This document shows positions 26,462 through 63,776 of a stretch of DNA of 64,000 nucleotides, piece after piece (positions within the stretch are counted from its first letter, which is position 1; each line of letters opens with the position of its first letter). The notes under the pieces were generated by a model. It saw only the letters and a list, made by a program, of their open reading frames with translations. It had not been told where the DNA came from and did not search any database. Where the stretch lies: assembly GCF_900117415.1 (NCBI RefSeq), contig NZ_FPEI01000006.1, forward strand, positions 1,178,001 through 1,242,000. The letters run 5' to 3'. This DNA is from Hyphomicrobium sp. CS1BSMeth3 (GTDB taxonomy: Bacteria; Pseudomonadota; Alphaproteobacteria; Rhizobiales; Hyphomicrobiaceae). The translations under genes and the position numbers were made by a program.

Positions 26462-26578
26462 ATGCACGACGAAGTTGCGCAAAAGCCACAAGCGTCGACT
26501 GGACAGCTCGGCGATCTTGCCCTAGTGATCCCGGCCGCTGTCACGAGATTGTCGTCTTCCGGAGGGGGCCGCCAATGA
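26462..26578 (+). CDS. Candidate 38-residue peptide gene overlapping the PqqD-like gene (hypothetical)
   Basis: A short frame starting MHDEVAQKPQASTGQLGDL and ending in a Ser/Gly-rich LSSSGGGRQ. Its stop codon overlaps the PqqD-like start codon in an ATGA, the same coupling seen between later genes of this operon. No clear ribosome binding site precedes its ATG, which weakens the case. It could be a peptide substrate for the modifying enzymes downstream or a translational coupling leader. It has no recognisable motif. Confidence 0.3.
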   Translation: MHDEVAQKPQASTGQLGDLALVIPAAVTRLSSSGGGRQ

Positions 26579-27024
26579 CGGAATGCCACGGAAGTGCATC
26601 AGCATATTCATTAGCCAGCCCGGATATCGTCTCAGAGGAATTCGAAGGCGAGTTTGTCATCCTCGATCTGAGCTGCGGAAAATATTACAGCATGGATCCG
26701 GCAGCGAGCGTGCTCTGGCGCGCCATCGTGGCCGGCGTGCACCTGCAGGACCTCGCCGCGGCCGTCGACGGTGCTCCTGCCGTCACGGCTCAGTCCATTC
26801 ACGAGTTTGCAGAGAAGCTTGTGAGCTACGGCTGCCTCGTGCGCTCCGGCGCACAAGCATCCGCTCCGATCGACCCCGCCACGATCGACACGCTGAGGGC
26901 GAGCACCAACCCTCCCACTGTCGAGATGTTCGACGATTTGGCCGATCTCATCCTTGCAGATCCGATCCATGACGTCGAGGAGACGGCGGGATGGCCCATT
27001 CGCAAGCCGACCGCGGCGAATTGA
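26575..27024 (+). CDS. PqqD family peptide chaperone (RiPP recognition element-like)
   Basis: A 149-residue protein. Residues about 15-90 follow the PqqD pattern: FVILDLSCGKYYSMDPAASVLWRAI, then a helix, then FAEKLVSYGCLV. PqqD proteins and domains bind leader peptides and present them to modifying enzymes. The last 55 residues are an unassigned extension (PTVEMFDDLADLILADPIHDVEE) resembling a short acidic peptide segment. GGAGGGGG precedes the start. It overlaps the HprK-like gene by 34 bases and leads an operon with two glycosyltransferases and a nucleotidyltransferase. Confidence 0.8.
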   Translation: MTECHGSASAYSLASPDIVSEEFEGEFVILDLSCGKYYSMDPAASVLWRAIVAGVHLQDLAAAVDGAPAVTAQSIHEFAEKLVSYGCLVRSGAQASAPIDPATIDTLRASTNPPTVEMFDDLADLILADPIHDVEETAGWPIRKPTAAN

Positions 27025-28082
27025 ATGGCGATGCGGCGACGGAGATGTCGCGTGATCTTCTCGCTTTTGCCAGCGAGCTGCTGAGCTTTGCCGAGCGAGA
27101 GCACGGACGGCTTCCGCATCAGCGCACCTTCATCCTTCCCGGTGTGTCTCTGGGCACTGGCTATTCCGCGCCTCAGTTCGCCGAGCTTTGCGACCGGGCC
27201 TATCTGTCCGCGTCCGCTCCCGAGGATGCTCATTCGGTAGCGCTCGCCGTGCTGGATTACGAAGCGCTCCCGCACATGCCGCGATGGCGCGGACCTGCGC
27301 CCGGTTTTCACGACGTGACATCCGGGCTCGCGGCGCACGGCCTGCGCGCGGCATACGACGCGGGATATGCGACCTGGGATATCTACGACCCCGCGCGCGG
27401 ACTGGGTGTTCGCGCAATGGAGGCGACGGCGCTGCGGCCGCCATGGGAGCCATCCTTTCCGCTGCGCCTGCTGCTGCACTGGGCAGCCCGAGATCCGCGC
27501 CGCGGCATGATCCACGCGGGCACCCTCGGGCATCGAGGCTACGGGGTATTTCTGGTCGGCGCGGGAGGTTCCGGAAAATCCGGCACCACGCTCTCCGGCA
27601 TCCTGCATGGACTGACCAGCGTCGGCGACGACTACGTGGCGGTCAGCTCGCGCGACGCCATCGTCGAAGCGCTGCCGGTACTGCGGCGCATGAAGCAGGA
27701 TGTGGCGGGGCTGCGCCGGCTTGGTCTCGAAGCTGGGAAAGGCCCTCTCGACGGGCCGCCCAACTGGCAAGGCAAGATCGAGTTCGACTTCGAGGCCCTG
27801 GCTGCCGGCGCGCGCGCCGAGCGCCTGACCATGACCGCGATCCTCATGCCGCACATAGCAAGGGCGCCGTCCTCATCGTTCCGACCAGCCACCGCCAAGG
27901 AGGCCATGATCGCCATGGCGCCGAGCAGTCTTTTTCAGCTTCACGGGAGCTGGCGCGAGGATTTCGGATTGATCGCGTCGGTCGCGCGCACCTTGCCGGC
28001 ATTCCATCTCGATCTCAGCGAGGATCCGGGAGAGATCGCCGCTGCAATCCGGTCCTTTCTCGAGAGCAGGTCGGCGCGATGA
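26991..28082 (+). CDS. HprK-related kinase
   Basis: A 363-residue protein related to HPr serine kinase. The P-loop VGAGGSGKSGTT is at about residues 189-200, the upstream histidine segment IHAGTLG at 175-180, and GDDYVAV at 212-218, as in HprK-type kinases. The N-terminal 160 residues are not the HprK N-domain. Relatives occur with PqqD proteins and nucleotidyltransferases and in phosphorylated lasso peptide clusters. The probable role is phosphorylation of a peptide or sugar carrier, which is inference. The start lies inside the PqqD-like gene; ATG at 27045 is an alternative. It ends in an ATGA overlap with the first glycosyltransferase. Confidence 0.8.
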   Translation: MAHSQADRGELNGDAATEMSRDLLAFASELLSFAEREHGRLPHQRTFILPGVSLGTGYSAPQFAELCDRAYLSASAPEDAHSVALAVLDYEALPHMPRWRGPAPGFHDVTSGLAAHGLRAAYDAGYATWDIYDPARGLGVRAMEATALRPPWEPSFPLRLLLHWAARDPRRGMIHAGTLGHRGYGVFLVGAGGSGKSGTTLSGILHGLTSVGDDYVAVSSRDAIVEALPVLRRMKQDVAGLRRLGLEAGKGPLDGPPNWQGKIEFDFEALAAGARAERLTMTAILMPHIARAPSSSFRPATAKEAMIAMAPSSLFQLHGSWREDFGLIASVARTLPAFHLDLSEDPGEIAAAIRSFLESRSAR

Positions 28083-28837
28083 AAATCTCCATCCACATGC
28101 CCGCCTACAATGCCGAGAGCACGATCGGCTCGGCTCTCAAATCGCTTCTCCGCCAGCGCGACGCAGGCGAGCTCGACATCATCGTCGTGGATGATGGCTC
28201 GACCGACAGCACGCGCGATGCCATCGGCGCCCTCGCCGCCACGGCACCGGAGATCAGGCTGCTCTGCGTGCCTCACGGCGGCATTTCGAAAGCCCGGAAC
28301 ACGGCACTGCGGGCGACGCGGCCGGACACGGATCTCATCACCTTTCTGGACGCCGACGATCTGTCGCCCGCGGGCAGATTGGCACGCGATGCCGCTCTCC
28401 TGAAAGCGGATCCGGGTCTCCAGTTCGTATACTCCAAAATTCGTTTCTTCGATCTCGAGGACGCCGAGCATCTGGCACCGAGCGCAACGTCGCATGCCGT
28501 CGATGGCTGGATCGGCCAACTCGGTCAGGCGCTGTTCCGGCGCGAAGTCCTCGAAGCGGCTGGGCCATTCGACGAGACGCTGCAGCAGTCCGAGGATCTC
28601 GATCTCTGGTTTCGCATCTTCGCCGAGCAGCCCAAATACGCGGTCACCGAAGAGATCGGCGTGTACTACCGGAAGAACCACGGCAGCATCACCGAAAATC
28701 GCCGTCAGTTCCGGCAGGAGCTGATGAGGACCTTGTTCAGACATCGCAAGCGGCAACCCAAACTCGGCGAGCTCGGTCTGCCGCAAGGCTTCATCTCGGC
28801 CGACCACATGGCGGAGCTTCGGACATGGGTAAAATGA
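28079..28837 (+). CDS. Glycosyltransferase family 2 protein
   Basis: A 252-residue GT-A fold glycosyltransferase. It starts ISIHMPAYNAESTIGSALKSLL, carries IIVVDDGSTDSTRD with the nucleotide-sugar-binding aspartates near residue 38, and has FLDADDL (DxD metal site) near residue 93. The acceptor-base region SEDLDLWFRI is near residue 175. There are no membrane segments, so it acts in the cytoplasm. It overlaps neighbours on both sides by ATGA, so all these proteins are made together. Confidence 0.92.
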   Translation: MKISIHMPAYNAESTIGSALKSLLRQRDAGELDIIVVDDGSTDSTRDAIGALAATAPEIRLLCVPHGGISKARNTALRATRPDTDLITFLDADDLSPAGRLARDAALLKADPGLQFVYSKIRFFDLEDAEHLAPSATSHAVDGWIGQLGQALFRREVLEAAGPFDETLQQSEDLDLWFRIFAEQPKYAVTEEIGVYYRKNHGSITENRRQFRQELMRTLFRHRKRQPKLGELGLPQGFISADHMAELRTWVK

Positions 28838-29496
28838 TCGCCTATAGCGCCGTCATTCCAGCCTTCAATACGCAAGCCTACATCGCCGACGCGATCCTCT
28901 CGATCCGCGCTCAAACAGTGCCGCCGCAGGAGATCATCGTCGTCGACGACGGCTCGACCGACCGAACGGTGGAGGTCGTGAGAAGTCTCGGCGCCGATAT
29001 CCGGATCATTCGCCAGGAAAATCGCGGCGCCGGTCCGGCCACCACAGCCGCGATCGAAGCGGTAACGACCGGCCTGATCGCCGGCCTCGATTCCGATGAT
29101 ATCTGGCTGCCGCACAAGATGGAGCGGCAGTTGCAGGCATTGCAGGAAATGCCCGAGATCGCGGGCTGCTTTGCGAGAATGCGGCAGTTCCAACACGGCG
29201 CCGACATGGATGCGGATGGCCCCGTCGCCGACTCGTGGCTCCGGTCGTCCATGGTCATGCGCACCGAGGTTGCGCTCGGCGCCGGGCCGATCGTCGGGCG
29301 GATCGGAGAGCTCGTGGACTGGCTGGCGCGCATTCGCGAGCGGGGCCATCGCCTGCATCTTCTCCCCGAGGTCCTGGCATTGCGCCGCGCGCGCCCAGGG
29401 AGTCTCACCTACGACCGTGACGCCGCATGTAGCAGCGCCTATTTGCTCGCCGCCCGCAAAGCAATCCTGCGGCGGCGCGAGACGCCCGCAAGATAG
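28834..29496 (+). CDS. Glycosyltransferase family 2 protein, short
   Basis: A 220-residue GT-A glycosyltransferase, paralogous to the one just upstream. AVIPAFNTQAYIADAILSIRAQT opens the protein, IIVVDDGSTDRTVEVV is near residue 37 and GLDSDDIWLP (DxD) near residue 87. It lacks the ED-W motif in the form seen in its neighbour; the region near residue 150 reads GELVDWLARIRERG. The ATG at 28834 overlaps the preceding stop by 4 bases. A second start three codons earlier is possible. The sugar and acceptor are unknown. Confidence 0.88.
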   Translation: MIAYSAVIPAFNTQAYIADAILSIRAQTVPPQEIIVVDDGSTDRTVEVVRSLGADIRIIRQENRGAGPATTAAIEAVTTGLIAGLDSDDIWLPHKMERQLQALQEMPEIAGCFARMRQFQHGADMDADGPVADSWLRSSMVMRTEVALGAGPIVGRIGELVDWLARIRERGHRLHLLPEVLALRRARPGSLTYDRDAACSSAYLLAARKAILRRRETPAR

Positions 29497-29507
29497 AGGG
29501 CCCCAAC

Positions 29508-30965
29508 ATGCTCCTTATGCCGCGACATTTCTCGGCCTCACGACGCTTTCCCCAGCTCTCATGGGCCTGGCCGAACGGCAGCCGTCAGCTTCTTGTCATG
29601 GCGGCGGGCCACGCCGACGAGACGCGTGCCGCTGAGGCGCTCATCGAGTGGCTGTCGACGACGGACATCGATAGCTGTCACTTTCCCGAGCAGCGGCTTC
29701 TGGTGCGGATTGCCAGCCGCTTTCCCGAGACGCGCCTCAAAGTGGCCGAGCGTGCGCGCCTCAATGGCATCGTGCGGTTGCTCTGGACGAGATCGCGCCT
29801 CACTCTCGACAATGCCGCGCCGGCTCTCAAGGCCCTGCGCGAGGCCGGCGTAGAGCTGCTCGTCCTCAAGGGCATGGCGCTCACCGCGCTCAACATGCAG
29901 AACCTCAAGGGACGCATCGCGCACGATGTCGATATCCTCGTGCGCCCTTCCCACGTAGCGACTGCGCTCTCGACCATGGACCGCAGCGGCTGGCGCTCTG
30001 CGCGCGGCGAGTCGGGGCTGTTTCTCATGAAGCGCGGCGCGGCATTCCGCAGCCTCAACTTCCTGAAGGCGCCATTCGGCGACATAGACCTGCACACGCG
30101 GGCGTATCACACTGCGAAGCCCGACAGTGCACCCGAGACGGGCCTTTGGACGAGGAGCGCGCGGGCCGAGCTGCTGGGCATCGACGTGCTCGTGCCGAGC
30201 GCGACCGACCGGCTCGTGATCGCCATCGCGCACGGTGCTCTCGATGCCCATCGCCACAGCGACTGGCTCATCGACTGCGCGCAGATCGCCGGCGAGGGCG
30301 AAGTCGACTGGCCGCTGGTCGTGAGCCTTGCGACAGAGCTTGGCATCCCGGCGGAGGTGACGCTCGCCCTGACGTATGTGCGCGAGGTCCTGGGCTACCC
30401 AATTCCGGAGAGCATCCTTGCGCAGCTCTGGAGTGCCGCAAGGAGCATGCCAGCCGACTACTACAAGGCGCTCATGCTCGGCTATCCGAGGGCCCGGCAC
30501 TCGATGGTCAGCAGCGTCGGGCGGCGCATCTTCAAGGCCCGGCATCAGGCGCAGGTCAAGGCCGCCAACGGCAGTGTCGGCTCCGCCGCCGATCCCCGCA
30601 TCGAGATGCGCAGGATCGGTCGTCCGGCGGAGTTACCGGACAGCCCGCCGGCGCTGCGCCACCGCGTCAGCATCGCGCCTGGAGCACAACGGTGCGCGAT
30701 CGTGATTGCCATGGAAGGCGCCGGCCCGGCCCGGCGCTATGTATTCGAAGTCAACACGCACGACCGCCACCTCGCACAGATCACGTACAGGGATCTGTTC
30801 GGCCGCGGAGAGCTCTTCCTCGGTGCGGAGATTGGACTGCCTGGTGACGTCGCCGTCGACCACATCTGGATCGAAGCGCGTCAGTCCGGAATTCTCGTGC
30901 CCGGACATTCGGCCGACGAGCAGGCGAAGTTCGGCCCGCGGCCCTTCCGCCTTCTCGCGAGTTGA
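29508..30965 (+). CDS. Nucleotidyltransferase family protein (NTP_transf_5-like)
   Basis: A 485-residue protein. The nucleotidyltransferase core spans about residues 75-290: VELLVLKGMALTALNM near residue 115 and HDVDILVRP near residue 140, the DxD that coordinates metal. The family (PF14907) occurs in lasso peptide and polysaccharide gene clusters. The C-terminal 120 residues form an extra, probably beta-rich domain (RRYVFEVNTHDRHLAQITYRDL) that I do not recognise. It is the last gene of the PqqD/HprK/GT operon, 11 bases after the second glycosyltransferase. Confidence 0.82.
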   Translation: MLLMPRHFSASRRFPQLSWAWPNGSRQLLVMAAGHADETRAAEALIEWLSTTDIDSCHFPEQRLLVRIASRFPETRLKVAERARLNGIVRLLWTRSRLTLDNAAPALKALREAGVELLVLKGMALTALNMQNLKGRIAHDVDILVRPSHVATALSTMDRSGWRSARGESGLFLMKRGAAFRSLNFLKAPFGDIDLHTRAYHTAKPDSAPETGLWTRSARAELLGIDVLVPSATDRLVIAIAHGALDAHRHSDWLIDCAQIAGEGEVDWPLVVSLATELGIPAEVTLALTYVREVLGYPIPESILAQLWSAARSMPADYYKALMLGYPRARHSMVSSVGRRIFKARHQAQVKAANGSVGSAADPRIEMRRIGRPAELPDSPPALRHRVSIAPGAQRCAIVIAMEGAGPARRYVFEVNTHDRHLAQITYRDLFGRGELFLGAEIGLPGDVAVDHIWIEARQSGILVPGHSADEQAKFGPRPFRLLAS

Positions 30966-55110: not shown

Positions 55111-55593
55111 GGAGTGACACCGTTGCGCCTTCATTCGCCCAAGCAGTGCTCTAAGACATCAATCACAGTGCAGAGGGCAGGCTGTGAGGGATCCGACAGG
55201 CTCGCATTGTCTGAGTTAACGCTAACTACCGCGCTCCGCCGTTGCCATCCGGGTTTCTCCCGGTCTTCCCTTGGTGGGGTACTGACGTGAGCGGGCACGA
55301 CAGCACCACGCGATCAACGCGCCGTCGGATGCGAGAGCTCTGACGATCAGCCGTCGTTATTGACGGCTGTGCTGTTGATGTCATCCCGACAGCACCAAGC
55401 GCCGAGCTGCCAGTTCCGCGAGGCCGCAGGGGCCTGGCGGACGCCCGCCGGCCTCTCCTCAATTGGCCTAGGCTAAAGTTTTTTGGACCTGTTCCCCCAG
55501 GAACAGCGGCGGCCTCTCCCCGATGACATATTGGCTCCATCGAAGGCGAGCTTCGAGACGCCAACAGGCGGCCACGTCACGGGAGACACTGCC
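55111..55593. promoter_or_regulatory. Intergenic region before the peptide island, with a perfect hairpin
   Basis: This 483-base gap lies between two divergent operons, DUF3141 and the first leader peptide, so it should contain both promoters. A perfect 8-bp inverted repeat, CAGCCGTC-GTTATT-GACGGCTG, is at 55348-55369. It has no T-tract and no gene ends there, so an operator role is more likely than termination. I found no convincing ORF or -35/-10 pair. Confidence 0.4.
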
Positions 55594-55803
55594 ATGACCC
55601 ACAGCAGCAAGAATCCTGAGCTTCGGTCTTTGACCCACGAAGAAATTGACGCCGTCGCCGGCGCGCGCGTGAGGGCCGTCATCGTCTTCGGCGACTGCAC
55701 GACCAACCCGCGCGATTTCACCGACTTCGGTGTGCCTGTGATCATCTTCAATCCCTGGATCACGCCCGGCACGCCCGAGCGCGCAGGCCAGGTCCCCCTC
55801 TAG
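55594..55803 (+). CDS. Double-glycine-type leader peptide precursor, NPW-motif core (peptide 1)
   Basis: A 69-residue precursor. The leader ends LTHEEIDAVAGA, matching the LSxxEIxxVSG-G/A pattern cut by C39 peptidases; the predicted core is 45 residues from RVRAVIVFGDC onward. It contains one Cys and ends FNPWITPGTPERAGQVPL. A closely similar NPW-P-PER tail occurs in the precursor at 61487. GGGAGACA precedes the ATG. It heads the plus-strand unit that continues with peptide 2, the ferredoxin fusion protein and the exporter. Cleavage after Gly-Ala rather than Gly-Gly is acceptable in known systems but unproven here. Confidence 0.8.
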   Translation: MTHSSKNPELRSLTHEEIDAVAGARVRAVIVFGDCTTNPRDFTDFGVPVIIFNPWITPGTPERAGQVPL

Positions 55804-55869
55804 TCCCGTTTCCACCAACTACCGCAGCACCTCACCACCACCTCAACCCACCCACCAAGGAGAACTACG

Positions 55870-56046
55870 ATGCTTAAGGATCTCAACAAGGCCCCCCAGA
55901 CTGCCGAGCTTCGCGAGCTGAGCCTCGATGAAATCGAAGCCACATCCGGCGCCGGCCTCATTTCATGGCTGAAGAGCATCTTCGGCGGCAACGATCCGAA
56001 GCCCGCCCGGGGCCCTCACAATCGTCCCGACGATCACCTCAAGTGA
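55870..56046 (+). CDS. Double-glycine-type leader peptide precursor, amphipathic core (peptide 2)
   Basis: A 58-residue precursor. The leader ends RELSLDEIEATSGA; the core of 30 residues begins GLISWLKSIFGG, an amphipathic helix pattern like that of many antimicrobial peptides, and continues into a polar Pro/Asn/Asp-rich tail. AAGGAGAACTAC is a strong ribosome binding site. It lies 66 bases after peptide 1 and 150 before the ferredoxin fusion gene. It probably shares the exporter encoded downstream. Confidence 0.82.
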   Translation: MLKDLNKAPQTAELRELSLDEIEATSGAGLISWLKSIFGGNDPKPARGPHNRPDDHLK

Positions 56047-56059
56047 GAAGCCCCTGGCA

Positions 56060-56094
56060 GGCGGCGCGCGACCACTCCAAGGGTCCGCGCCGCC
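56060..56094 (+). terminator. Hairpin after peptide 2 (possible attenuator)
   Basis: GGCGGCGCG and CGCGCCGCC form a 9-bp GC stem with a 17-base loop, 13 bases after the peptide 2 stop. No T-tract follows. In peptide-exporter operons such a hairpin often limits read-through, so peptides are made in excess over the exporter. That reading is inference. Confidence 0.4.
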
Positions 56095-56196
56095 GGCCCC
56101 CTACCCTCTAAAGCAGCAGAATCGCAGTGGTACATACCCAGAACCGTTGACGCTGCGGCCTATGTTGTAGGAGCCTGGAGGCGGGGGACCGGGGCA

Positions 56197-57717
56197 ATGC
56201 ACGTATACTTGCGAGGCAGCTTTGAGCAGAAACTCCGGCTCGTATCCGGGCTGGTCCTGTTTGCCTTTGCCGCAACCCACTTCCTCAATCACGCGCTCGG
56301 ACTGGTGAGCCTCGAACTCATGCACGACGCTCAGCATCTCCGCACGGCCATAACGAGATCGGCCGTTGGCACCTTGATCCTGGGCGCCGCGCTTGTCACC
56401 CACATCACGCTCGCCCTGCTGAAGACGGCGCGGCGGAAGACATGGCGTATGCCCCGTTGGGAGGCCGTGCAGATCCTGCTCGGGCTCGCCATCCCGTTCT
56501 TCCTGTTCCCGCACATCGTGAACACGCGCATTGCGCATCAGTTCTTCAGGGTCGAGGACAGCTACCTTTATGAGCTCGTACGCCTGTGGCCCGACAGTGC
56601 CGAATTTCAAGCGCTTCTGATGCTGACGGTCTGGGGGCACGGATGTCTCGGCCTGCACTACTGGCTGCGCCTGTCGGACCCCTATCGCCGGGTCGCGCCG
56701 GCACTTCTGGTCTTGGCCATCGCAATTCCCATCCTCGCCTTGGCGGGATTTGCCGTTGCCGGCCGCACGGCCGGTGACATCATGAGCGATCCCGAGGCTC
56801 TCGCGGCGCTCAAAACCCGATCGAACTGGCCCAATGCCGAGGACAGTGCCGTCCTCGCCTGGCTGCGCGTCACCGTGCGCATGATCTTCTATGCGATCGT
56901 GGCCGGAGTCATCGGGCTCGCCATATCACGTCAGCTCTCGCGCAAGATCTTGAGCAAGCCCGTTCGCGTCAGCTTCATCGATGGCCCGACCATCGAGGCC
57001 GCGCCGGGCAAGACCCTGCTCGAGCTCAGCCGTGCTGCGGGCATCCCGCATGCCTCGGTCTGCGGCGGCCGCGGGCGCTGCTCCACGTGCCGCGTGCGCA
57101 TCGAGAAGGGCCAGGATCGCCTGCCACCACCGACCGGCGCGGAAGCTGTCACGCTCGCCTCCATCAGCGCGCCGAGCAACATCAGATTGGCCTGTCAGAT
57201 TCGACCCTCAGCGGATCTGTCGGTCGCCATTGTCAGCCGCCCGGCAGTCCCAGGGCCGCCCCAGGAAAGCTTCTTCGACTTCAAGGAAGTTGTCGCCGCG
57301 CACGTGCGCGGCGTCACCGGTGAGCATCTCGTCGATATGTCGTCGCATGATCCAGTCGCCATTGAGAAGTGGTTGAAGGACAGCGGACAAGAGGCCGGCC
57401 CGGTGCAGGATCTTTCGGCTGCAGGATTTTCTCTCGAAGGCGCGCGCGTCGAGTACCTCGCCGATCAGCCGAAGGCAGCGATCATCTTCCGGCGAAGCGG
57501 GCGCCCCGTCACGCTCTTCCAATCCGCGCTCGATGACGCGTCGCCGCTCGCCATGCGCGGTCAGCACAATGGCTACCACGTGCGCACATTGAGCGTTGGT
57601 CGCGTCTCCTACGTGCTGGTCTCCGATCTGGCTGCAAGGGAGCTCGATCTCATGGAGGAAGCCTTGCAGCCTGAAGAACCCGAGCTGAAAGCAGACGCGC
57701 GAGCGGCGATACAATGA
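56197..57717 (+). CDS. Membrane protein with 2Fe-2S ferredoxin domain and RsiW-like anti-sigma domain
   Basis: A 506-residue inner-membrane protein. Residues ~10-245 hold about six hydrophobic helices with many His (THFLNHALG, VTHITLAL, FPHIVNTRIAHQF, WGHGCLGLHYW), possible heme ligands; this N terminus resembles that of 2Fe-2S adenylate cyclases. A ferredoxin domain follows: CGGRGRCSTC (C289, C295, C298) and C333, the adrenodoxin-like C-x5-C-x2-C spacing. No cyclase domain follows. Residues ~366-490 (HDPVAIEKWLKDSG ... GFSLEGARVEYLADQPKAAIIF ... VSYVLVSDLAARELD) resemble the sensor part of RsiW-type anti-sigma factors. It lies between peptide genes and the exporter and could sense redox state. 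Confidence 0.8.
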   Translation: MHVYLRGSFEQKLRLVSGLVLFAFAATHFLNHALGLVSLELMHDAQHLRTAITRSAVGTLILGAALVTHITLALLKTARRKTWRMPRWEAVQILLGLAIPFFLFPHIVNTRIAHQFFRVEDSYLYELVRLWPDSAEFQALLMLTVWGHGCLGLHYWLRLSDPYRRVAPALLVLAIAIPILALAGFAVAGRTAGDIMSDPEALAALKTRSNWPNAEDSAVLAWLRVTVRMIFYAIVAGVIGLAISRQLSRKILSKPVRVSFIDGPTIEAAPGKTLLELSRAAGIPHASVCGGRGRCSTCRVRIEKGQDRLPPPTGAEAVTLASISAPSNIRLACQIRPSADLSVAIVSRPAVPGPPQESFFDFKEVVAAHVRGVTGEHLVDMSSHDPVAIEKWLKDSGQEAGPVQDLSAAGFSLEGARVEYLADQPKAAIIFRRSGRPVTLFQSALDDASPLAMRGQHNGYHVRTLSVGRVSYVLVSDLAARELDLMEEALQPEEPELKADARAAIQ

Positions 57718-57766
57718 ATTTCTCACGCACATCATACTCAGACCTGCTGACCTGCATGAGGTCCAC

Positions 57767-59011
57767 ATGAGCGAGCTATTCCGAAGAGAAGCTGTCGCGC
57801 ACGCAACGCGGCGCCTGGACGGGCAGGTCGTTCTGGCGACGCCACTGTCGGTGCGCACGCTGGGCCTGCTGCTCACGGCAATCGTTTTCGCTGCAGCAAC
57901 ATTCGCCGCCCTCGGCACGTATTCGCGGAAGGCGACGGTTGCCGGCTATCTCATCCCTGATCAAGGCATGATCCGCGCGGCAGCTCCCGCGTCGGCCACG
58001 CTCCAGAGCCTCATTGTCAAGGAAGGCGACGTCGTCTCGGCCGGGGATCGCATTGCAGTCCTCAGCATGTCGACCGAGACGGCCGCAGGCAATGTCGGCG
58101 ACGTGATCTCGCAGGGACTGACCTCGGAGACGCTCGCCGCGCGTACAAAAGCCGAGTCGCGCCTCGCTCAGCTCGAAGTGGAGCGCGAGCAGGCGAACAT
58201 CCGCCTGTCCAAGAGCGAAGCCGAGCACAAGCAGATCACGATCCAGGTCGGACTTCAGGAGCAGCGTCTCGAGATTGCGCGCGGCGAATACGCGCGCGGC
58301 GTAGAGATCGCCAACAAGGGCTTTCTCGCGCGCCGCGAGGTCGATGCCCGGCGTCTCGCCGTTCTCTCGGCGGAGCAGGAGCTCGCGTCACACCATCGCC
58401 AGCTCGCCAGCATCGAAAGCGCGATCGCGGAGATCAAGGGACGCCTCGCCTCGATCCCGCTCGAGATCAATGCCGCGCGCTCGGAGGCATCGAGCGCTCA
58501 GGCGAGCCTTCAGCAGCGCCGCGCCGAAGCCGAGGCGCGACGCCTCCAGTTTGTCACCGCGCCGGTGAGCGGCCGCGTTGCCGCGCTGCCGGTGACAACG
58601 GGTCAGCCCATTGCTGCCGGCGGAACGATCGCGGTGGTCGTTCCCGTCGGCGGCAAGCTCGAAGCCGAGCTGCTGGCGCCATCCCGCGCCATCGGCTTCA
58701 TTCAGCCCGGGCAGGATGTCGAGATCAGCCTCCAGGCCTTTCCCTATCAGCGCTTCGGTACCATTCGCGGCACCATACGCACGGTCTCGAGCACCGTGAT
58801 CAGTCCTGCGGAGATCGGCTTTCAAGGCTTGCGTGTCGATGAGCCCGTCTTCCGCATTCGCGTGTCGCTCATGCGTGAGAGCATGATGGCTTACGGGCAG
58901 GCCATTCCTTTGCAGCCGGGAATGCTTGCCTCGGCGGAGATTGTGTTCGATCGGCGCAGTCTGCTGCGCTGGCTGTTTGATCCGATTTATGCCGTGGGGC
59001 TGAGGTCATGA
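57767..59011 (+). CDS. HlyD family secretion adaptor (CvaA-like)
   Basis: A 414-residue periplasmic adaptor of a type I secretion system. One N-terminal membrane helix (LLLTAIVFAAATFAALG, residues ~30-48) is followed by a lipoyl half-motif (IRAAAPASATLQSLIVKEGDVVSAGDRIAVL), long coiled-coil hairpin (~120-265), the second lipoyl half (TAPVSGRVAALPVTTGQPIAAGG) and a beta-barrel part. It has the size and order of adaptors that serve bacteriocin exporters. The ATGA overlap couples it to the C39 ABC transporter. No outer-membrane TolC is encoded nearby, so a general one would be used. Confidence 0.92.
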   Translation: MSELFRREAVAHATRRLDGQVVLATPLSVRTLGLLLTAIVFAAATFAALGTYSRKATVAGYLIPDQGMIRAAAPASATLQSLIVKEGDVVSAGDRIAVLSMSTETAAGNVGDVISQGLTSETLAARTKAESRLAQLEVEREQANIRLSKSEAEHKQITIQVGLQEQRLEIARGEYARGVEIANKGFLARREVDARRLAVLSAEQELASHHRQLASIESAIAEIKGRLASIPLEINAARSEASSAQASLQQRRAEAEARRLQFVTAPVSGRVAALPVTTGQPIAAGGTIAVVVPVGGKLEAELLAPSRAIGFIQPGQDVEISLQAFPYQRFGTIRGTIRTVSSTVISPAEIGFQGLRVDEPVFRIRVSLMRESMMAYGQAIPLQPGMLASAEIVFDRRSLLRWLFDPIYAVGLRS

Positions 59012-61152
59012 GCATTCTGGACGAACTGCACTTCGGCGGTCGTCGCCTGCCGGTTATCACGGCCTCCGAAGCTGCCGAGTGTGGCCTTGCGTGCATCGCC
59101 ATGATCTCCCGCTACCACGGCCACGATGTGGACCTGAACGGCCTGCGCCAACGCTATGCCCTCTCGCTCGCCGGCGCGTCGCTCAAGAGCCTGATGGAGA
59201 TCACGGACAAGCTCGGCTTCTCGACGCGCGCGCTTCGCGTCGAGCTCGGCGCGCTCGACAAAGTCCGCCTTCCAGCCATCGTGCATTGGGACCTCAACCA
59301 CTTCGTCGTTCTGAAGAGCGTCGGCCGCCGCAAGCTCGTCGTGCACGATCCGGCGCTCGGCGTGCGCGTGTTCAGCCCTGAGGAGTTCTCGAAGCACTTC
59401 ACGGGCGTCGTGCTGGAGCTCGCACGGGCCGAGACATTCGAGCCGGTCTCGGCGCGGATGCCGATGAAGCTCTCCATGCTGTGGTCGAGAATGACGGGTT
59501 GGTGGCCCGCCCTCGCCCAGGTCCTCGTCCTGTCGGTCGCGTTGCAGATCGTCACGTTCGTCGCGCCCCTGCAGATGCAGCTTGTCGTCGATGAGGCGCT
59601 CGCCAGTGTGGACCGCGACCTTCTTACGGTGATTGCGCTCGGCTTTGGTGCGCTCGTCATCATTCAGGCGGCTATCGAAGCGCTCCGCTCGTGGGCGCTC
59701 AGGGTCTTCGGCCATCTCCTGAGCTTCCAGATCTCCGGCAATCTCGTGCGCCATCTGCTGCGTCTGCCGAGCGACTATTTCGAGAAACGACATGCCGGCG
59801 ACATCATCTCGCGCCTCGGCTCGACCAAACCCATCCAGGATGCCATTACGCAGGGTGTTGTCGGCACCGTCATCGACGGCATCATGGCCTGCGTCGCCGC
59901 GGTCATCCTGTTCTTCTATTCGACGACGCTGGCAATGATCGTCATCGCCGCCGTGCTGATCAACATGGCGCTGAACCTCGCCCTATTCCCGCGCATGAAG
60001 CAGCGCATGGAGGAAGAGATTCTCGCCGAAGCGAAGGAACAGACGCACCTCATGGAGAGCGTGCGGGCTGCGACGACACTCAAGCTTCTCGGGCGGGAGG
60101 CCGTACGCGAGAGCGGATGGCGCAACCTGCACGCCGACTCCACGAATGCCAGCATTGCCGTCGGCAAGCTCACCATCTCACAGTCCCTCATTCAGAGCAT
60201 CGTGACGGGCCTGCAGACGGTCATCGTCATCTATGTCGCCGGCCGCCTCATCCTCGACGGTCAGGGCTTCTCGGTCGGAATGCTGTTCTCGTTCCTCTCG
60301 TACCGGCAGACGTTCACGGACCGCGCCAATGCGCTCGTCAATCAGCTCATGCAGTTTCGCTTTCTGCGTCTGCATCTCGACCGCCTCGCCGATATCGTGA
60401 CGACGCCGACGGAACTCTCTGGCGCCTCGTCCGAGCCTGCGGAGGTGAGAGGACACGTGCGCCTCAAAGACGTGTCCTTCCGCTATGGCGCAACGGATCC
60501 GCTGGTGCTCGAGGACATCAACCTCGAGATCTCGCCTGGTGACTATGTCGCCATTCACGGCGCATCCGGCGGCGGCAAGAGCACGCTTCTGAAACTCCTT
60601 CTCGGTCTCAACCAGCCCTCCGATGGGATGATCGAGCTCGACGGGCAGCGCGCGACGGCGGAGCGGTGGCGCGCCTGGCGCGAGAAGGTGGGCGTCGTCG
60701 CCCAGGACGATCGGCTTCTGTCCGGCACGCTCGCAGACAACATCGGCGGGTTCGATCCCGATCTCGACATGCAGCGGGTCGTCGCTGCTGCCGTGGCCGC
60801 GCAAGTGCACAATGATATTGTTCGCATGCCCATGCAGTATCTGACGCTCGTCGGCGATATGGGCTCGACGCTCTCCGGCGGCCAGCGCCAGCGTGTCCTG
60901 CTCGCGCGCGCGCTCTATCGCCAGCCGAAGATCCTCATTCTCGACGAGGGCACCGCCAATCTCGACGAGCAGAATGAGGAGCTGATCGCGGATCTCATCG
61001 ACCAGATGCCGATCACGCGCATTGTCGTGGCGCACCGGCCTGCACTTCTGCGACGGGCGAAGCGCGTTTACGAGGTCGGCGGGCGTCGGCTCAAGGAAGT
61101 CCAGTATGGATCAGGACATAGCCCGCTCGCGGCAGCCGTCGCGGCCCCGTAG
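59008..61152 (+). CDS. Peptidase-containing ABC transporter (C39, bacteriocin exporter type)
   Basis: A 714-residue inner-membrane exporter that cuts double-glycine leaders and moves the cores out. The N-terminal C39 domain has an intact catalytic triad: Cys25 in EAAECGLAC, His98 in HWDLNHFVV and Asp114 in VVHDPALG. A six-helix membrane domain follows (~160-440; LPSDYFEKRHAGDIISR). The nucleotide domain has Walker A GASGGGKST (~518), signature LSGGQRQR (~622) and Walker B ILILDEGTAN. It is encoded next to an HlyD adaptor and six leader-bearing peptides, which it is likely to process. Confidence 0.95.
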   Translation: MSILDELHFGGRRLPVITASEAAECGLACIAMISRYHGHDVDLNGLRQRYALSLAGASLKSLMEITDKLGFSTRALRVELGALDKVRLPAIVHWDLNHFVVLKSVGRRKLVVHDPALGVRVFSPEEFSKHFTGVVLELARAETFEPVSARMPMKLSMLWSRMTGWWPALAQVLVLSVALQIVTFVAPLQMQLVVDEALASVDRDLLTVIALGFGALVIIQAAIEALRSWALRVFGHLLSFQISGNLVRHLLRLPSDYFEKRHAGDIISRLGSTKPIQDAITQGVVGTVIDGIMACVAAVILFFYSTTLAMIVIAAVLINMALNLALFPRMKQRMEEEILAEAKEQTHLMESVRAATTLKLLGREAVRESGWRNLHADSTNASIAVGKLTISQSLIQSIVTGLQTVIVIYVAGRLILDGQGFSVGMLFSFLSYRQTFTDRANALVNQLMQFRFLRLHLDRLADIVTTPTELSGASSEPAEVRGHVRLKDVSFRYGATDPLVLEDINLEISPGDYVAIHGASGGGKSTLLKLLLGLNQPSDGMIELDGQRATAERWRAWREKVGVVAQDDRLLSGTLADNIGGFDPDLDMQRVVAAAVAAQVHNDIVRMPMQYLTLVGDMGSTLSGGQRQRVLLARALYRQPKILILDEGTANLDEQNEELIADLIDQMPITRIVVAHRPALLRRAKRVYEVGGRRLKEVQYGSGHSPLAAAVAAP

Positions 61153-61172
61153 CTCCTTCACTCTCATCGGAC

Positions 61173-61220
61173 ACCGAGGCAATAAGCAGCGAGCAACAAC
61201 GACTGCGCCTCGGTATTTTT
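61173..61220 (+). terminator. Intrinsic terminator of the exporter operon
   Basis: ACCGAGGC at 61173-61180 pairs with GCCTCGGT at 61207-61214, with a smaller inner GCAG/CTGC stem, and is followed by ATTTTT. It lies 20 bases after the transporter stop codon. Between here and 61430 I see no gene, although the region has a GC-rich GCGCGC run. Confidence 0.7.
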
Positions 61221-61430
61221 GCGAAGCTCGTACTCGGCAGCCGGCCCGCAAACGACTTCGCTTGATGTAGCTCGTGGCAAGGGCGCTCATGCGCGCGCGC
61301 AATCCAAGGGCCTACAGCGCGCGCGCCCTAAACCGACCTGCCTCGTCGCGCCTACCGCCACACTCGGCACGAACGCGGTCGGGACCAAGTGGGAGATGAT
61401 CGCAAGTGTTCTTGCGGAGGCCGTCTCCAT

Positions 61431-61463
61431 AAAAAAAGGGGCGGACCAGCAATGGCCCGCCCC
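61431..61463 (-). terminator. Intrinsic terminator of the minus-strand peptide genes
   Basis: On the minus strand, GGGGCGGGCC and its partner GGTCCGCCCC form a GC-rich stem, followed by seven T residues (61431-61437). It begins about 24 bases past the stop of the peptide gene at 61487. It is the best-formed terminator in the window. Confidence 0.88.
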
Positions 61464-61486
61464 TCGCAACTGAGCTCGGAATGATC

Positions 61487-61687
61487 TCAGATCATCCGGC
61501 GCTCTGGACTAGAAGGATCGAGCCACGGGTTGTAGACAGGCCCTGGCCCGCGGATGATCCTGATGCAGCCTTCGTTGGTGAAGGGATTGAGTGCCACGCC
61601 GCCCGTCACCGTATCAAGCTCGGAGGCGGAGAGTGATCGAACACCATCCTTGGCTGTTCGGCGGCTGTTGTTCGTGAGATTGCTCAT
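61487..61687 (-). CDS. Double-glycine leader peptide precursor, NPW-motif core (peptide 3)
   Basis: A 66-residue precursor. The leader ends SLSASELDTVTGG, a canonical C39 site; the core of 36 residues begins VALNPFTNEGC, contains one Cys and ends VYNPWLDPSSPERRMI. The NPW-x2-P-x2-PER tail is shared with peptide 1 at 55594, whose core also has a single Cys. The gene follows peptide 4 on the minus strand and is closed by a strong terminator. Confidence 0.85.
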   Translation of the reverse strand: MSNLTNNSRRTAKDGVRSLSASELDTVTGGVALNPFTNEGCIRIIRGPGPVYNPWLDPSSPERRMI

Positions 61688-61725
61688 CTGTGTTCTCCCA
61701 AATGTGTTGAAGTTTCGAAGAGCGA

Positions 61726-62016
61726 TCAGGTCCGCGGGCGTCCCTGAGCCGTATCCAAGATCTGCTGCCAGGTGATGCCGCTACCACCTCCCCTGCTCGG
61801 AGCGGTAGCCACGGCAGCAACGACACCAAGCACCGTCCCAATACCCATCGCGATCAGAAGAGGGCCGAGCGCTCCCGAGACCTCTTCCACTTCCGCTGCG
61901 CCAAGTGAGCGAATATCTGCGCCGAAGCTGTCATTGCCCGACGCGTCGGCAATCCCGTCTTCATTGCGAAGGCGGATATGCTCGCCCATGGCCGTCTGCT
62001 CGTTCGTATTGGTCAT
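61726..62016 (-). CDS. Double-glycine-type leader peptide precursor, hydrophobic core (peptide 4)
   Basis: A 96-residue precursor. A long leader ends RSLGAAEVEEVSGA. The core begins LGPLLIAMGIGTVLGVVAAVA, a hydrophobic helix with GxxxG-like glycine spacing, as in pore-forming class II bacteriocins and colicin V. A Gly/Ser-rich link and the tail ITWQQILDTAQGRPRT follow. CTGGAGATTGAG precedes the ATG at 62016. It is transcribed with peptide 3 and divergent from peptide 5. Confidence 0.8.
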   Translation of the reverse strand: MTNTNEQTAMGEHIRLRNEDGIADASGNDSFGADIRSLGAAEVEEVSGALGPLLIAMGIGTVLGVVAAVATAPSRGGGSGITWQQILDTAQGRPRT

Positions 62017-62329
62017 CTCAATCTCCAGAGTTGTGTTCTGTGCCCTTTGCACGATCGGAGCATCTCGCAACAACGTCCGGCGCGCTGTCGCCTAGGGCAC
62101 GAGGCGAGAGAATCTTGCGGCTGCTTGTTGGAGGCGGTCGGACGGCAGCCAAAGCCCATGCCCGCACGTGCGATGGAGCTCCGCGCAGATGCTGCTTCCG
62201 CCTGGGAACGTCCACTTCAACTTCGCGGCGTGCCCTGAGGGACAGCGCACACGAAGCGCAAACGACATTGTGGACGCGTGGCCGATTGGTCGGACACGCA
62301 CTGAAACTCACACCCGAAAGGAAATGACT

Positions 62330-62473
62330 ATGAACACGAAGGACACGATTGGTACGCAGTCGCAGCCCCAGGAGCTCTCCGCGTCGGAGATCCAGCAGGT
62401 TTCCGGCGGCATTGCCTGGTTCCCGATCATCATGGCGGTCGCGCGCTTCGCCTTCTCGCAAGCCAAGCATTAG
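62330..62473 (+). CDS. Double-glycine leader peptide precursor, short core (peptide 5)
   Basis: A 47-residue precursor. The leader ends ELSASEIQQVSGG; the core is the 20-residue IAWFPIIMAVARFAFSQAKH, hydrophobic with a basic end. AAAGGA lies 7 bases before the ATG at 62330; an ATG two codons earlier is too close. It is divergent from peptide 4 and followed by a hairpin and peptide 6. The 313-base gap before it (62017-62329) holds both divergent promoters; no other gene is evident there. Confidence 0.85.
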   Translation: MNTKDTIGTQSQPQELSASEIQQVSGGIAWFPIIMAVARFAFSQAKH

Positions 62474-62477
62474 TTCA

Positions 62478-62505
62478 TCGAGCAGGCCAGTCATGGCCTG
62501 CTCGA
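62478..62505 (+). terminator. Perfect hairpin between peptides 5 and 6
   Basis: TCGAGCAGGCC-AGTCAT-GGCCTGCTCGA is an 11-bp perfect stem with a 6-base loop, beginning 4 bases after the peptide 5 stop, followed by ATACCTTTC. It looks like a weak terminator or attenuator that would make peptide 5 more abundant than peptide 6. Confidence 0.6.
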
Positions 62506-62595
62506 ATACCTTTCAGACAATGAGTTCGAGATCGCCCAAGCCGGCGATGGATGGGCGAAGAGAAAGATCAACCAGAATTCAGTTGGAGAACTTGC

Positions 62596-62751
62596 ATGCA
62601 GACGAACGATCAATCGCGACGCCAGAAGGCCGAGGCGTGTCGCACGCTCTCCGCGATGGAGGTCGCCAGCGTTAGCGGTGGGGTGGTGATGATACCGACG
62701 GCTCTTCTCTATCCGATCTACATCGCCGGCAGCCGCAGGACGCAGAAATAG
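62596..62751 (+). CDS. Double-glycine leader peptide precursor, short core (peptide 6)
   Basis: A 51-residue precursor. The leader ends RTLSAMEVASVSGG; the core is about 22 residues, VVMIPTALLYPIYIAGSR plus a basic end. Size and hydrophobic-then-basic layout resemble peptide 5, suggesting a two-peptide pair. TTGGAGAACTTGC precedes the ATG at 62596. The frame is open upstream but without a leader-like sequence. It converges on the AraC gene. Confidence 0.83.
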   Translation: MQTNDQSRRQKAEACRTLSAMEVASVSGGVVMIPTALLYPIYIAGSRRTQK

Positions 62752-62781
62752 CGCGCCCGCCAGTCCAGGAGGCAATCCATC

Positions 62782-62816
62782 AAGCGGCGGGGCGGCATCA
62801 GGCTGCGCCGCCGCTT
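62782..62816. terminator. Hairpin between peptide 6 and the convergent AraC gene
   Basis: AAGCGGCGG and CCGCCGCTT form a 9-bp stem around a 17-base GC-rich loop, between two converging stop codons. The stem ends give an A-tract-like AA and a TT on both strands but no long T-run. It is probably a bidirectional transcript end. Confidence 0.5.
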
Positions 62817-62828
62817 CGTCTGTTGCCC

Positions 62829-63776
62829 TCAGAGAGAGGAGATTTGATTGCCCAGCCGCCACTGGCTTGGAGACATCGCAAAACGGGCCCGAAATGCCTT
62901 ATTGAAGTGAGACAGATCGTTGAAGCCCCAACGGTAGGCGATCGTCGAGATGCTATCGCCCTGCTTGAATGGGTCCTTCAAATCCTTGCCGCACGCTTCC
63001 AGACGGCACTCCAGAAGCCAGCGACCGAAGCTCTTCCCACTCTGCTGAAAGCGTAGCTGAAGCGTGCGCACGGAAATGCCGAGATGCGAGGCCACGAGCG
63101 ACGGGGAAAGCTCGGGATTATGCAAATGCTGCCGGCAGAAAGTGAGAATTGACTGCATCATCAGTTCCGGAGCGAGGCTGTTCGGCCTGACTTCCCGCGC
63201 ACTCGCCAGAGTCAAAAGATTGCAGAGGTTCTCGACCATCAGGACGGCTTCGCTCGTGCTGAGATCGTCATCGCCTCCCGTGAGATGAAGCAAGTGCCGC
63301 CGCGCGAGATCGCTGTAAGGCCCCGAGAGCGTGAGCTTGCGGCAAGATCGGGCGTCCTTCATCCAGGGCGCGCGCTGGCTGAGCATTTCGCGCGGAACTA
63401 TCGCCAGGATGCGATGGACCGAGTCGGGAAAGCCCACACGGAACGGCCGTTCGCTGTCGACAATGGCGATCTCCCCGGGTTCAAGGCAGAAGCTCTCCTC
63501 TCCCTGAGTGATATTGCTGCGACCCCGGATCTGGAGGCTGACCAGGTAGCTGGCTTCAGGCGCTGCCGCGACGTGGCAATTGTTGCGTACGATCCCGTGA
63601 GAGGTGGACTCGAATGAAGCCAACCGCAAGTTGCCGAAAGTTCTGCTGGCAATGCTCGCCGAGAAGCCGTTCGCCGGATGCTCGGTCGACACGCTGAGCA
63701 CTGTCTGACACACCACCTCTCGCCAGTACGAGAAACGCTCCCGCGACTGCACAGTAGCCGTCGACCAAGTGGCCAT
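62829..63776 (-). CDS. AraC family transcriptional regulator
   Basis: A 315-residue regulator. The N-terminal ~180 residues resemble the AraC-binding-like sensor domain (FSYWREVVCQTVLSV ... CLEPGEIAIVDSERPFRV). The C-terminal HTH_18 domain (residues ~208-310) has both helix-turn-helix units, SPSLVASHLGISVRTLQLRFQQSGKSF and ISTIAYRWGFNDLSHFNKAFRARFAMSPSQWR. It closes the peptide island and faces it, so it may control the peptide genes, perhaps in response to a small molecule. No binding site could be assigned. Confidence 0.92.
   Translation of the reverse strand: MATWSTATVQSRERFSYWREVVCQTVLSVSTEHPANGFSASIASRTFGNLRLASFESTSHGIVRNNCHVAAAPEASYLVSLQIRGRSNITQGEESFCLEPGEIAIVDSERPFRVGFPDSVHRILAIVPREMLSQRAPWMKDARSCRKLTLSGPYSDLARRHLLHLTGGDDDLSTSEAVLMVENLCNLLTLASAREVRPNSLAPELMMQSILTFCRQHLHNPELSPSLVASHLGISVRTLQLRFQQSGKSFGRWLLECRLEACGKDLKDPFKQGDSISTIAYRWGFNDLSHFNKAFRARFAMSPSQWRLGNQISSL

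Follow-up and report, generated by a model that had tools for sequence, protein, structure and literature searches.

A C39 exporter island in Hyphomicrobium sp. CS1BSMeth3 and a putative CRP-controlled set of double-glycine peptides

What is the role of six small genes with double-glycine (GG) leaders that flank one peptidase-containing exporter: are they a self-contained bacteriocin cluster, or the local part of a peptide system spread more widely over the genome? This question is raised by an island at 55490-62751 of a 64,000-nucleotide stretch of Hyphomicrobium sp. CS1BSMeth3 (contig NZ_FPEI01000006.1, positions 1,178,001 to 1,242,000; hereafter the window). The island contains six short open reading frames (ORFs; p1-p6) together with genes for a membrane protein with a Fer2 domain, an HlyD adaptor and an ABC exporter with a C39 peptidase domain (Table 1). 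At a probability of about 60%, we favor a secreted-peptide system controlled by a CRP-family regulator, in which the island is the export hub and carries a local stock of substrates. Possibly, this regulon is tuned by redox state. A preliminary description of the locus had proposed six precursors with shared leaders around an HlyD adaptor and a C39 exporter. All six ORFs were located, the fourth being fixed by an ATG at 62016, and both transport proteins were confirmed by Pfam. The present account adds the operators, a regulator and an interpretation of the protein at 56197-57717, all of which are described below.

The peptide genes are arranged head to tail in three units, p1-p2, p4-p3 and p5-p6, and a Shine-Dalgarno (SD)-like site lies upstream of each. 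Their leaders have the form L(S/T/G)xxE(I/L/V)xx(V/T)xG(G/A), with Leu at -12, Glu at -8, Ile, Leu or Val at -7 and Val or Thr at -4 before GG or GA. In a structure of a C39 protease with its leader, residues -4, -7 and -12 of the leader sit in hydrophobic pockets (PMC6363468; this and all other papers are cited from the excerpts available). The leaders are of the C39 type. A strict leader pattern combined with an ATG and an SD site was found exactly at p1-p6 in the 64 kb and nowhere in window positions 1-55,000; it did not occur in 357 kb of other loci and appeared once in total over ten Markov resamples of the window. Three additional window frames recovered by a looser pattern were judged to be chance. 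The cores, as had been proposed, differ widely. Searches of Pfam, NCBIfam and other family libraries gave no match above cut-off for any of the six peptides. Matches to the CTB and lactobin/cerein class IIb bacteriocin families (NF038167, TIGR03949) were weak, confined to the leader region and below cut-off, and the cores remained unmatched. Common to p1 and p3 is an NPWxxPxxPER stretch (E 3e-6 for the cores in a single pairwise comparison).

Further peptides with this leader occur away from the exporter. A first model built from eight leaders was run on six genomes (E <= 0.01). It matched seven places in the window genome (G000; six of them training members), four in the Hyphomicrobium genome G100 (two training members), four, seven and eight in the Nitrobacter-type genomes G101, G102 and G103, and none in Brevundimonas. 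When the fetched stretches were read, with weaker matches included, the Nitrobacter-type genomes held 8, 8 and 13 precursors, respectively, and the window genome two far from the island (L076, L077). The Nitrobacter-type peptides are scattered singly or, often, in pairs. The genes around them, read by eye, we take to be of housekeeping type, namely pyrBC-plsY-dprA, surE/serS, glyA and recA, and the exporter sits between what are presumably priA and ATP-synthase genes. No leader peptide was found adjoining the three Nitrobacter-type exporter loci (L016-L018). In Hyphomicrobium G100, two other GG peptides adjoin the exporter; a GG precursor stands before the CyaC-like gene there as well (L015:6567-6806). 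The preliminary description had named loss of the small ORFs in relatives that keep the transporter as a point against it, and half of the outcome is of this kind; the Nitrobacter-type genomes nevertheless carry their scattered peptides with the same leader. Two proposed homologies were dropped. Full-length tblastn had matched p2 to the Hyphomicrobium peptide that occupies its position (E 4e-4, small database), but BLASTP with the cores alone gave nothing at E <= 100, and p3 likewise gave nothing at E <= 100 against its Nitrobacter-type candidate. For these pairs, only position and leader similarity were kept. Among Nitrobacter-type orthologues, eight of nine pairs were covered by an estimate of selection. 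All eight have fewer amino-acid than silent changes, and the summed pN/pS is close to 0.26 in the leaders and to 0.25 in the cores, which shows purifying selection on both parts at the sequence level.

To what extent leader and exporter occur together was visible in larger samples. Among 100 genomes, the leader model matched in G000 and G059, and in a 25-residue frame with a stop in G020. A second model of 27 leaders was run on 397 genomes of the order, apparently the same draw as that used for the exporter scan (E <= 1e-150), and matched 26 of them. A leader match was present in 16 of 20 genomes with the exporter (three of the 16 had supplied training leaders) versus 10 of 377 without it. Seven of these ten exporter-less matches lie in frames of 813-871 amino acids and were therefore taken as artefacts. 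In G203, the leader frame lacks an ATG, GTG or TTG start codon both upstream of the leader and within it, and a match in an 85-amino-acid frame of G024 was left out of the reading. G424 is a genuine exception, with ten leader matches, all read as precursors (L254-L262). This ten-peptide set may be an orphan set, may use a divergent exporter or may reflect an assembly gap.

The evidence for joint control comes from sites upstream of the peptide genes. For Clr of Sinorhizobium meliloti, the operator consensus is HGTYHCNNNNGRWACA with the core GTNNCNNNNGNNAC (PMC10127613). In G000 and G100, a Clr core lies within 200 bp of all eight first peptide genes, at -78 to -137. A ninth unit (L264) has one at -86, giving 9/9 units. 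Control frames, each taken to begin at the first ATG of an open frame of at least 150 amino acids, whether a gene or not, had the core in 11 of 184 cases, and shuffling yielded 0.062 per gene. The second genes p2, p3, p6 and that of L078 have no Clr core upstream. In the Nitrobacter-type genomes the site is GTGA-N6-TCAC, which matched in all eight letters within 200 bp of 19 of 29 peptide starts; 15 of these 19 perfect sites are at -88 to -102. The same site was found in 6 of 240 control frames, with a shuffle expectation of 0.07 of 29. Eight of the ten starts lacking a perfect site belong to second genes of pairs, and the other two have 7/8 letters. Three of the 29 starts are approximate positions and not start codons (L082 7532, L087 4867, L092 4615); they carry three of the 19 perfect sites. 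The three Nitrobacter-type exporter operons also have 7/8 sites, at -91, -91 and -94.

G424 was held out of motif finding. Here, GTGA-N6-TCAC is present with 8/8 letters before four of the ten peptides and with 7/8 before another four, and two have only a Clr core; all sites lie at -87 to -99 (the distance of -92 for L258 was measured from its GTG start). Clr cores precede nine of the ten peptides, and one or other operator type precedes all ten. The chance per stretch is 0.002 for an 8/8 site, 0.06 for a 7/8 site and 0.06 for a Clr core. Five GG peptides beside C39 exporters of 43% identity (L265-L268) have no GTGA-N6-TCAC, the best sites having 5 or 6 of 8 letters, and one of the five has a Clr core at -198.

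A candidate regulator is encoded 1.2 kb past the window (L014:1200-1985). The best PDB match of this CRP-family protein is S. meliloti Clr (7pza, E 1.9e-47; next match 1.2e-27). Clr contacts DNA through Q184, S194, R195, K197 and N199 (PMC10127613). The candidate has SRSKVNR with a Gln ten residues before the Ser, so that the Q, S, R, K and N contacts are kept. It also has a cNMP_binding domain, and its binding may depend on cAMP or cGMP. In G101 and G103, the nearest homologues are 33-35% identical and have an ARES(I/V)NR helix; this reading covered all nine and all seven CRP-family genes, respectively, and the eight matches of G102 were left out. The helix is nearer to the CAP motif RE(T/M)VGR (PMC10127613) and would thus fit the CAP-like GTGA-N6-TCAC operator in these two genomes. 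The window genome encodes one more Clr-like protein. It is 91-93% identical to its counterparts in the congeners G003 and G004, which have one copy each, so that the island-side copy is an extra one. Congeners G001 and G002 had no Clr-like copy at E <= 1e-20. Past the island, three regulator genes stand in a row, encoding an AraC-family protein (62829-63776), a LuxR/PAS protein and the Clr-like CRP (L014 22-1985). Of these, only the last has a likely link to the island.

The C39 domain of the exporter retains Cys25, His98 and Asp114. An intact triad had been reported, and its three residues are indeed present, but the active site is not quite intact, as the proposed oxyanion Gln is replaced by Ala. 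This Gln, six residues before the Cys, was proposed to stabilize the oxyanion and lies 4.3 A away in one structure (PMC6363468). In an alignment of 39 loci, a subset of the relatives from a pattern scan, Ala occupies this position in the window, L015-L018 and L120, Ser in the clade neighbor L034 (55% identity) and Gln in 33 of 33 other aligned loci; in one of these 33, L032, a stop falls at the Cys position. By sequence, the exporter belongs to a rare clade of 75-79% identity. Its close relatives are in a Hyphomicrobium metagenome-assembled genome (MAG), two Nitrobacter MAGs and a Hyphomicrobiales MAG; they were found by scanning short patterns over one genome each for 84,980 species, in which divergent copies can be missed. 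G149 carries a further close exporter of 76% (L120). At E <= 1e-100 the exporter was found in 3 of 100 genomes, the window genome included, with 79% identity in G059 and 43% in G045. Among the matches listed for its own genome, the window copy alone aligns over the C39 domain. A TolC-type outer membrane factor would be encoded elsewhere: the genome has 11 OEP domain matches, none inside the window, which are candidate partners of the exporter.

Two ideas about the origin of the island were rejected. A plasmid origin was discarded, all 71 plasmid records matching at E <= 1e-150 being less than 60% identical. No clean empty site could be defined in the congener G004, although synteny ends there. 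Between 49361 and 55068, the window and G004 share 81% DNA identity; to the right of 55068 (the window to 64000 and 18 kb of L014) nothing matches G004:C11 1-55500, and G004 has no exporter at E <= 1e-100.

The gene between p2 and the HlyD adaptor encodes a CyaC-like protein. Pfam places a Fer2 domain at residues 264-337, and a positive-inside reading of the orthologue alignment by eye gives six transmembrane helices, a conserved His and a cytosolic Fer2 domain. Its first ~350 residues (about 5-352) are 37-43% identical to proteins of G103, G149 and G182. The G103 protein (L137; 37%, residues 5-349) is a CyaC-type cyclase with a Guanylate_cyc domain; the G149 and G182 proteins are 41-43% identical, the cyclase C-terminus having been tested for L137 alone. 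For CyaC of S. meliloti, the published scheme shows two b-hemes and a [2Fe-2S] cluster, and the enzyme is responsive to quinones (PMC10463352). The window protein resembles it in having, by sequence, a membrane heme anchor and a [2Fe-2S] domain in one polypeptide, with heme binding predicted. Unlike in CyaC, no cyclase domain was found: family searches gave neither a catalytic domain nor a Guanylate_cyc match, so the protein should not make cAMP itself. Instead, its last 150 residues resemble the C-terminal region of anti-sigma factors of the zf-HC2 type (33% to L140 over 121 amino acids, E 8e-21 in a single comparison; L140 has zf-HC2 and anti-sigma matches). The gene lies beside the exporter in five of six close loci (window, L015-L018). 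The idea of a universal trio of CyaC-like protein, HlyD and C39-ABC exporter was dropped because L120 of G149 breaks it.

Table 1. Coordinates of the island features in the window.
Feature	Position	Strand	Description	Evidence
Clr-type operator TGTTCCCCCAGGAACA	55490..55505	.	104 bp upstream of p1; the single 12/12 match to HGTYHCNNNNGRWACA within the 64 kb	
p1	55594..55803	+	GA-leader precursor; NPWITPGTPER motif and a single Cys in the core	ORF and SD site; leader model (training member)
p2	55870..56046	+	GA-leader precursor; Pro-rich tail, core begins GLISWLKSIFGG	ORF and SD site; leader model (training member)
CyaC-like protein	56197..57717	+	Six putative transmembrane helices with conserved His, Fer2, anti-sigma-like C-terminus	Pfam Fer2; alignments
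HlyD-family membrane fusion protein	57767..59011	+		Pfam HlyD_3; NCBIfam TIGR01843 below its cut-off
C39 peptidase-ABC exporter	59008..61152	+		Pfam PF03412, PF00664, PF00005; active-site columns
p3	61487..61687	-	GG-leader precursor; NPWLDPSSPER motif and a single Cys in the core	ORF and SD site; leader model
p4	61726..62016	-	GA-leader precursor; hydrophobic GxxxG-like core	ORF and SD site; leader model
Clr core site GTGCCCTAGGCGAC (- strand)	62087..62100	.	-84 from p4 ATG	
Clr core site GTGCCCTGAGGGAC	62230..62243	.	-100 from p5 ATG	
p5	62330..62473	+	GG-leader precursor; hydrophobic 20-residue core	ORF and SD site; leader model
p6	62596..62751	+	GG-leader precursor; hydrophobic 22-residue core	ORF and SD site; leader model
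AraC-family regulator adjoining island	62829..63776	-	Candidate island member only	Pfam

Taken together, export of the peptides after C39 cleavage and their joint CRP-type control are well supported predictions from sequence. In the system that we propose, the Clr-like regulator, of cyclic-nucleotide type, would bind GTNNC-N4-GNNAC operators ~84-104 bp before p1-p2, p4-p3 and p5-p6 and turn these units on. The C39 domain would recognize the LSxxEIxxVSG(G/A) leaders and cleave after GG or GA. The ABC exporter, the HlyD protein and a TolC-like channel encoded elsewhere would then export cores of 20-47 residues. Most likely, the CyaC-like heme/[2Fe-2S] protein would read the respiratory redox state and tune production or export, and the short hydrophobic or amphipathic cores would, as a guess, act on the membranes of neighbors in a bacteriocin-like manner. 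The Clr regulon offers a parallel with respect to the operator core and to a regulator with the same DNA-contact residues, and 8 of its 20 confirmed Clr-activated genes encode proteins of less than 100 amino acids (PMC10127613). It differs in that ten of its activated genes encode proteins with N-terminal signal peptides, and the available excerpts of that paper mention neither GG leaders nor a link to an exporter.

Several observations weigh against this proposal. With Ala at the oxyanion position, cleavage could be slow or absent. Neither the exporter operon of the window nor that of Hyphomicrobium has a Clr core within 200 bp, and the peptide pair of G149 has neither operator type; the exporter of G149 also stands without a CyaC-like gene beside it. 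No exporter was found in G424 at E <= 1e-150 despite its peptides and operators. A lone Clr core or 7/8 site occurs in about 6% of shuffled stretches, and the operators were first spotted by eye in the same sequences, which is offset in part by the published Clr consensus and by the held-out G424. Regulator and island are separated by the AraC and LuxR genes. There are 12 HTH_Crp_2 matches in the window genome, including the second Clr-like copy that is also present in two of four congeners, and nine and seven CRP-family candidates in G101 and G103, so that several proteins could bind. The window's own peptides have no orthologues, which limits the evidence for selection to the relatives. Furthermore, no immunity gene was recognized, and constrained cores and solo placement fit a role other than killing equally well.

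The last two points bear on what the peptides do. The label of a class II microcin or bacteriocin system, given to the island before, is not established, although the leaders and the C39/HlyD exporter on which it was based stand. Like systems of the class II microcin type (MccV/CvaAB), the island has a GG or GA leader in 6/6 ORFs, a C39 ABC exporter and an HlyD-type adaptor. Unlike them, it has the Gln to Ala exchange in C39, CRP-type operators, relatives with scattered solo peptide genes and no recognized adjacent immunity gene. Class II microcin systems have five parts, among them an immunity gene that as a rule adjoins the precursor (PMC10233263). As had been stated for the island, none was recognized among its ORFs, nor among gene-like frames near 15 scattered loci, in a search made with no transmembrane predictor; conserved sequence features do not allow such immunity proteins to be found (PMC10233263). 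A plain bacteriocin or microcin cluster, in which each core or pair kills close relatives and the operators are one more regulatory input, is a credible though less probable account. Immunity would then come from an unrecognized small protein, a receptor difference or the exporter itself. In line with this, Bacteroides GG bacteriocins without an immunity protein have been reported (PMC10233263). The layout of precursors, HlyD and C39 and the hydrophobic and amphipathic cores fit as well, as does L086 4057-4290 of G102, a Gly-rich hydrophobic peptide that is followed by one which by eye looks amphipathic. The Nitrobacter-type cores, however, are constrained and not diversifying, and many cores of the relatives look, by eye, like small beta-strand peptides. 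Rhizobial exporters of bacteriocin type with large putative substrates have also been described (PMC2275737).

Constrained and beta-like cores without recognized immunity genes would suit peptides of surface growth or matrix, comparable to EbfG1-4/PteB of Synechococcus elongatus: redundant GG peptides with one C39 exporter, no immunity and expression tied to physiology. There, four small proteins have GG motifs (GA in one), and the Cys of the C39 transporter PteB is needed for biofilm (PMC4997328); the term immunity is absent from that paper. Some hosts of the present system are MAGs that seem to come from reactors. The comparison with EbfG is one of layout, the hosts are unrelated, neither a CRP operator nor a CyaC-like sensor was seen in those excerpts, and p4, p5 and p6 are hydrophobic peptides; as an alternative to the proposed system we regard this, too, as less probable. 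Within the CRP-controlled secreted-peptide system itself, killing and surface-growth roles are nearly equal. An improbable third account is that the exported cores are pheromones with a receptor elsewhere. GG peptides do act as signals in streptococci (PMC7595303), and p5 has a weak BlpC match (E 0.0028, 17.4 bits against a cut-off of 70), but this match has a low score and spans leader and core, no histidine kinase or peptide receptor was seen in the island, and each genome has many different cores.

A more far-reaching version of the CRP-controlled system is tentative and, in our view, doubtful. It links respiration to peptides: a CyaC-type quinone or redox sensor would have lost its cyclase, gained an anti-sigma domain and been wired to a one-exporter system with many secreted peptides, dispersed over the chromosome in some lineages and jointly switched on by CRP-family operators, and operator and regulator would have changed together between lineages. 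Clr-type SRxKVNR would then go with GTNNC-N4-GNNAC and CAP-like ARESxNR with GTGA-N6-TCAC, and the G424 sites satisfying both consensus forms would be intermediates. The proposed system as a whole would tie peptide secretion to respiratory redox sensing and cyclic-nucleotide-type regulation in Hyphomicrobium and Nitrobacter relatives, a connection that can be tested. Such a system was not described in the titles and abstract starts listed from open-licence papers. It is usually beside an exporter that GG-leader peptides are sought. Peptide genes that are scattered singly or in pairs, with one apparent exporter and recognizable by leader and operator, would thus be missed in many cases by locus-based bacteriocin mining.

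Some minor observations were made in the window and near related exporters. A row of genes occupies window positions 26575-30965: an ORF that by eye is PqqD-like, one for an HPr-kinase-like protein (a match below cut-off), two for glycosyltransferases of family 2 and one for an NTP_transf_5 protein. We take this row to resemble a cassette of some clusters for ribosomally synthesized and post-translationally modified peptides; no precursor was recognized in it. In Vibrio penaeicida (L024 5428-8642), GG-leader precursors with repeated APSDDDEG-type cores adjoin a related C39 exporter (41%). The locus also holds two MvdD-type pre-ATP-grasp proteins and is thus a graspetide-like locus with tandem cores; similar precursors are present in L035 and L037. 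In the other loci of L020-L025 (Rhodopila, other Acetobacteraceae or Rhodospirillales), GG-leader peptides lie upstream of related exporters; the cores of several are rich in glycine, and some of the peptides occur as tandem copies. The GG peptides beside the 43% exporters of L265-L268 (G307, G178, G436, G202) form a distinct family with the core SxELGAVSGxxxQVGGLVxGxVGGLLGAxGG.

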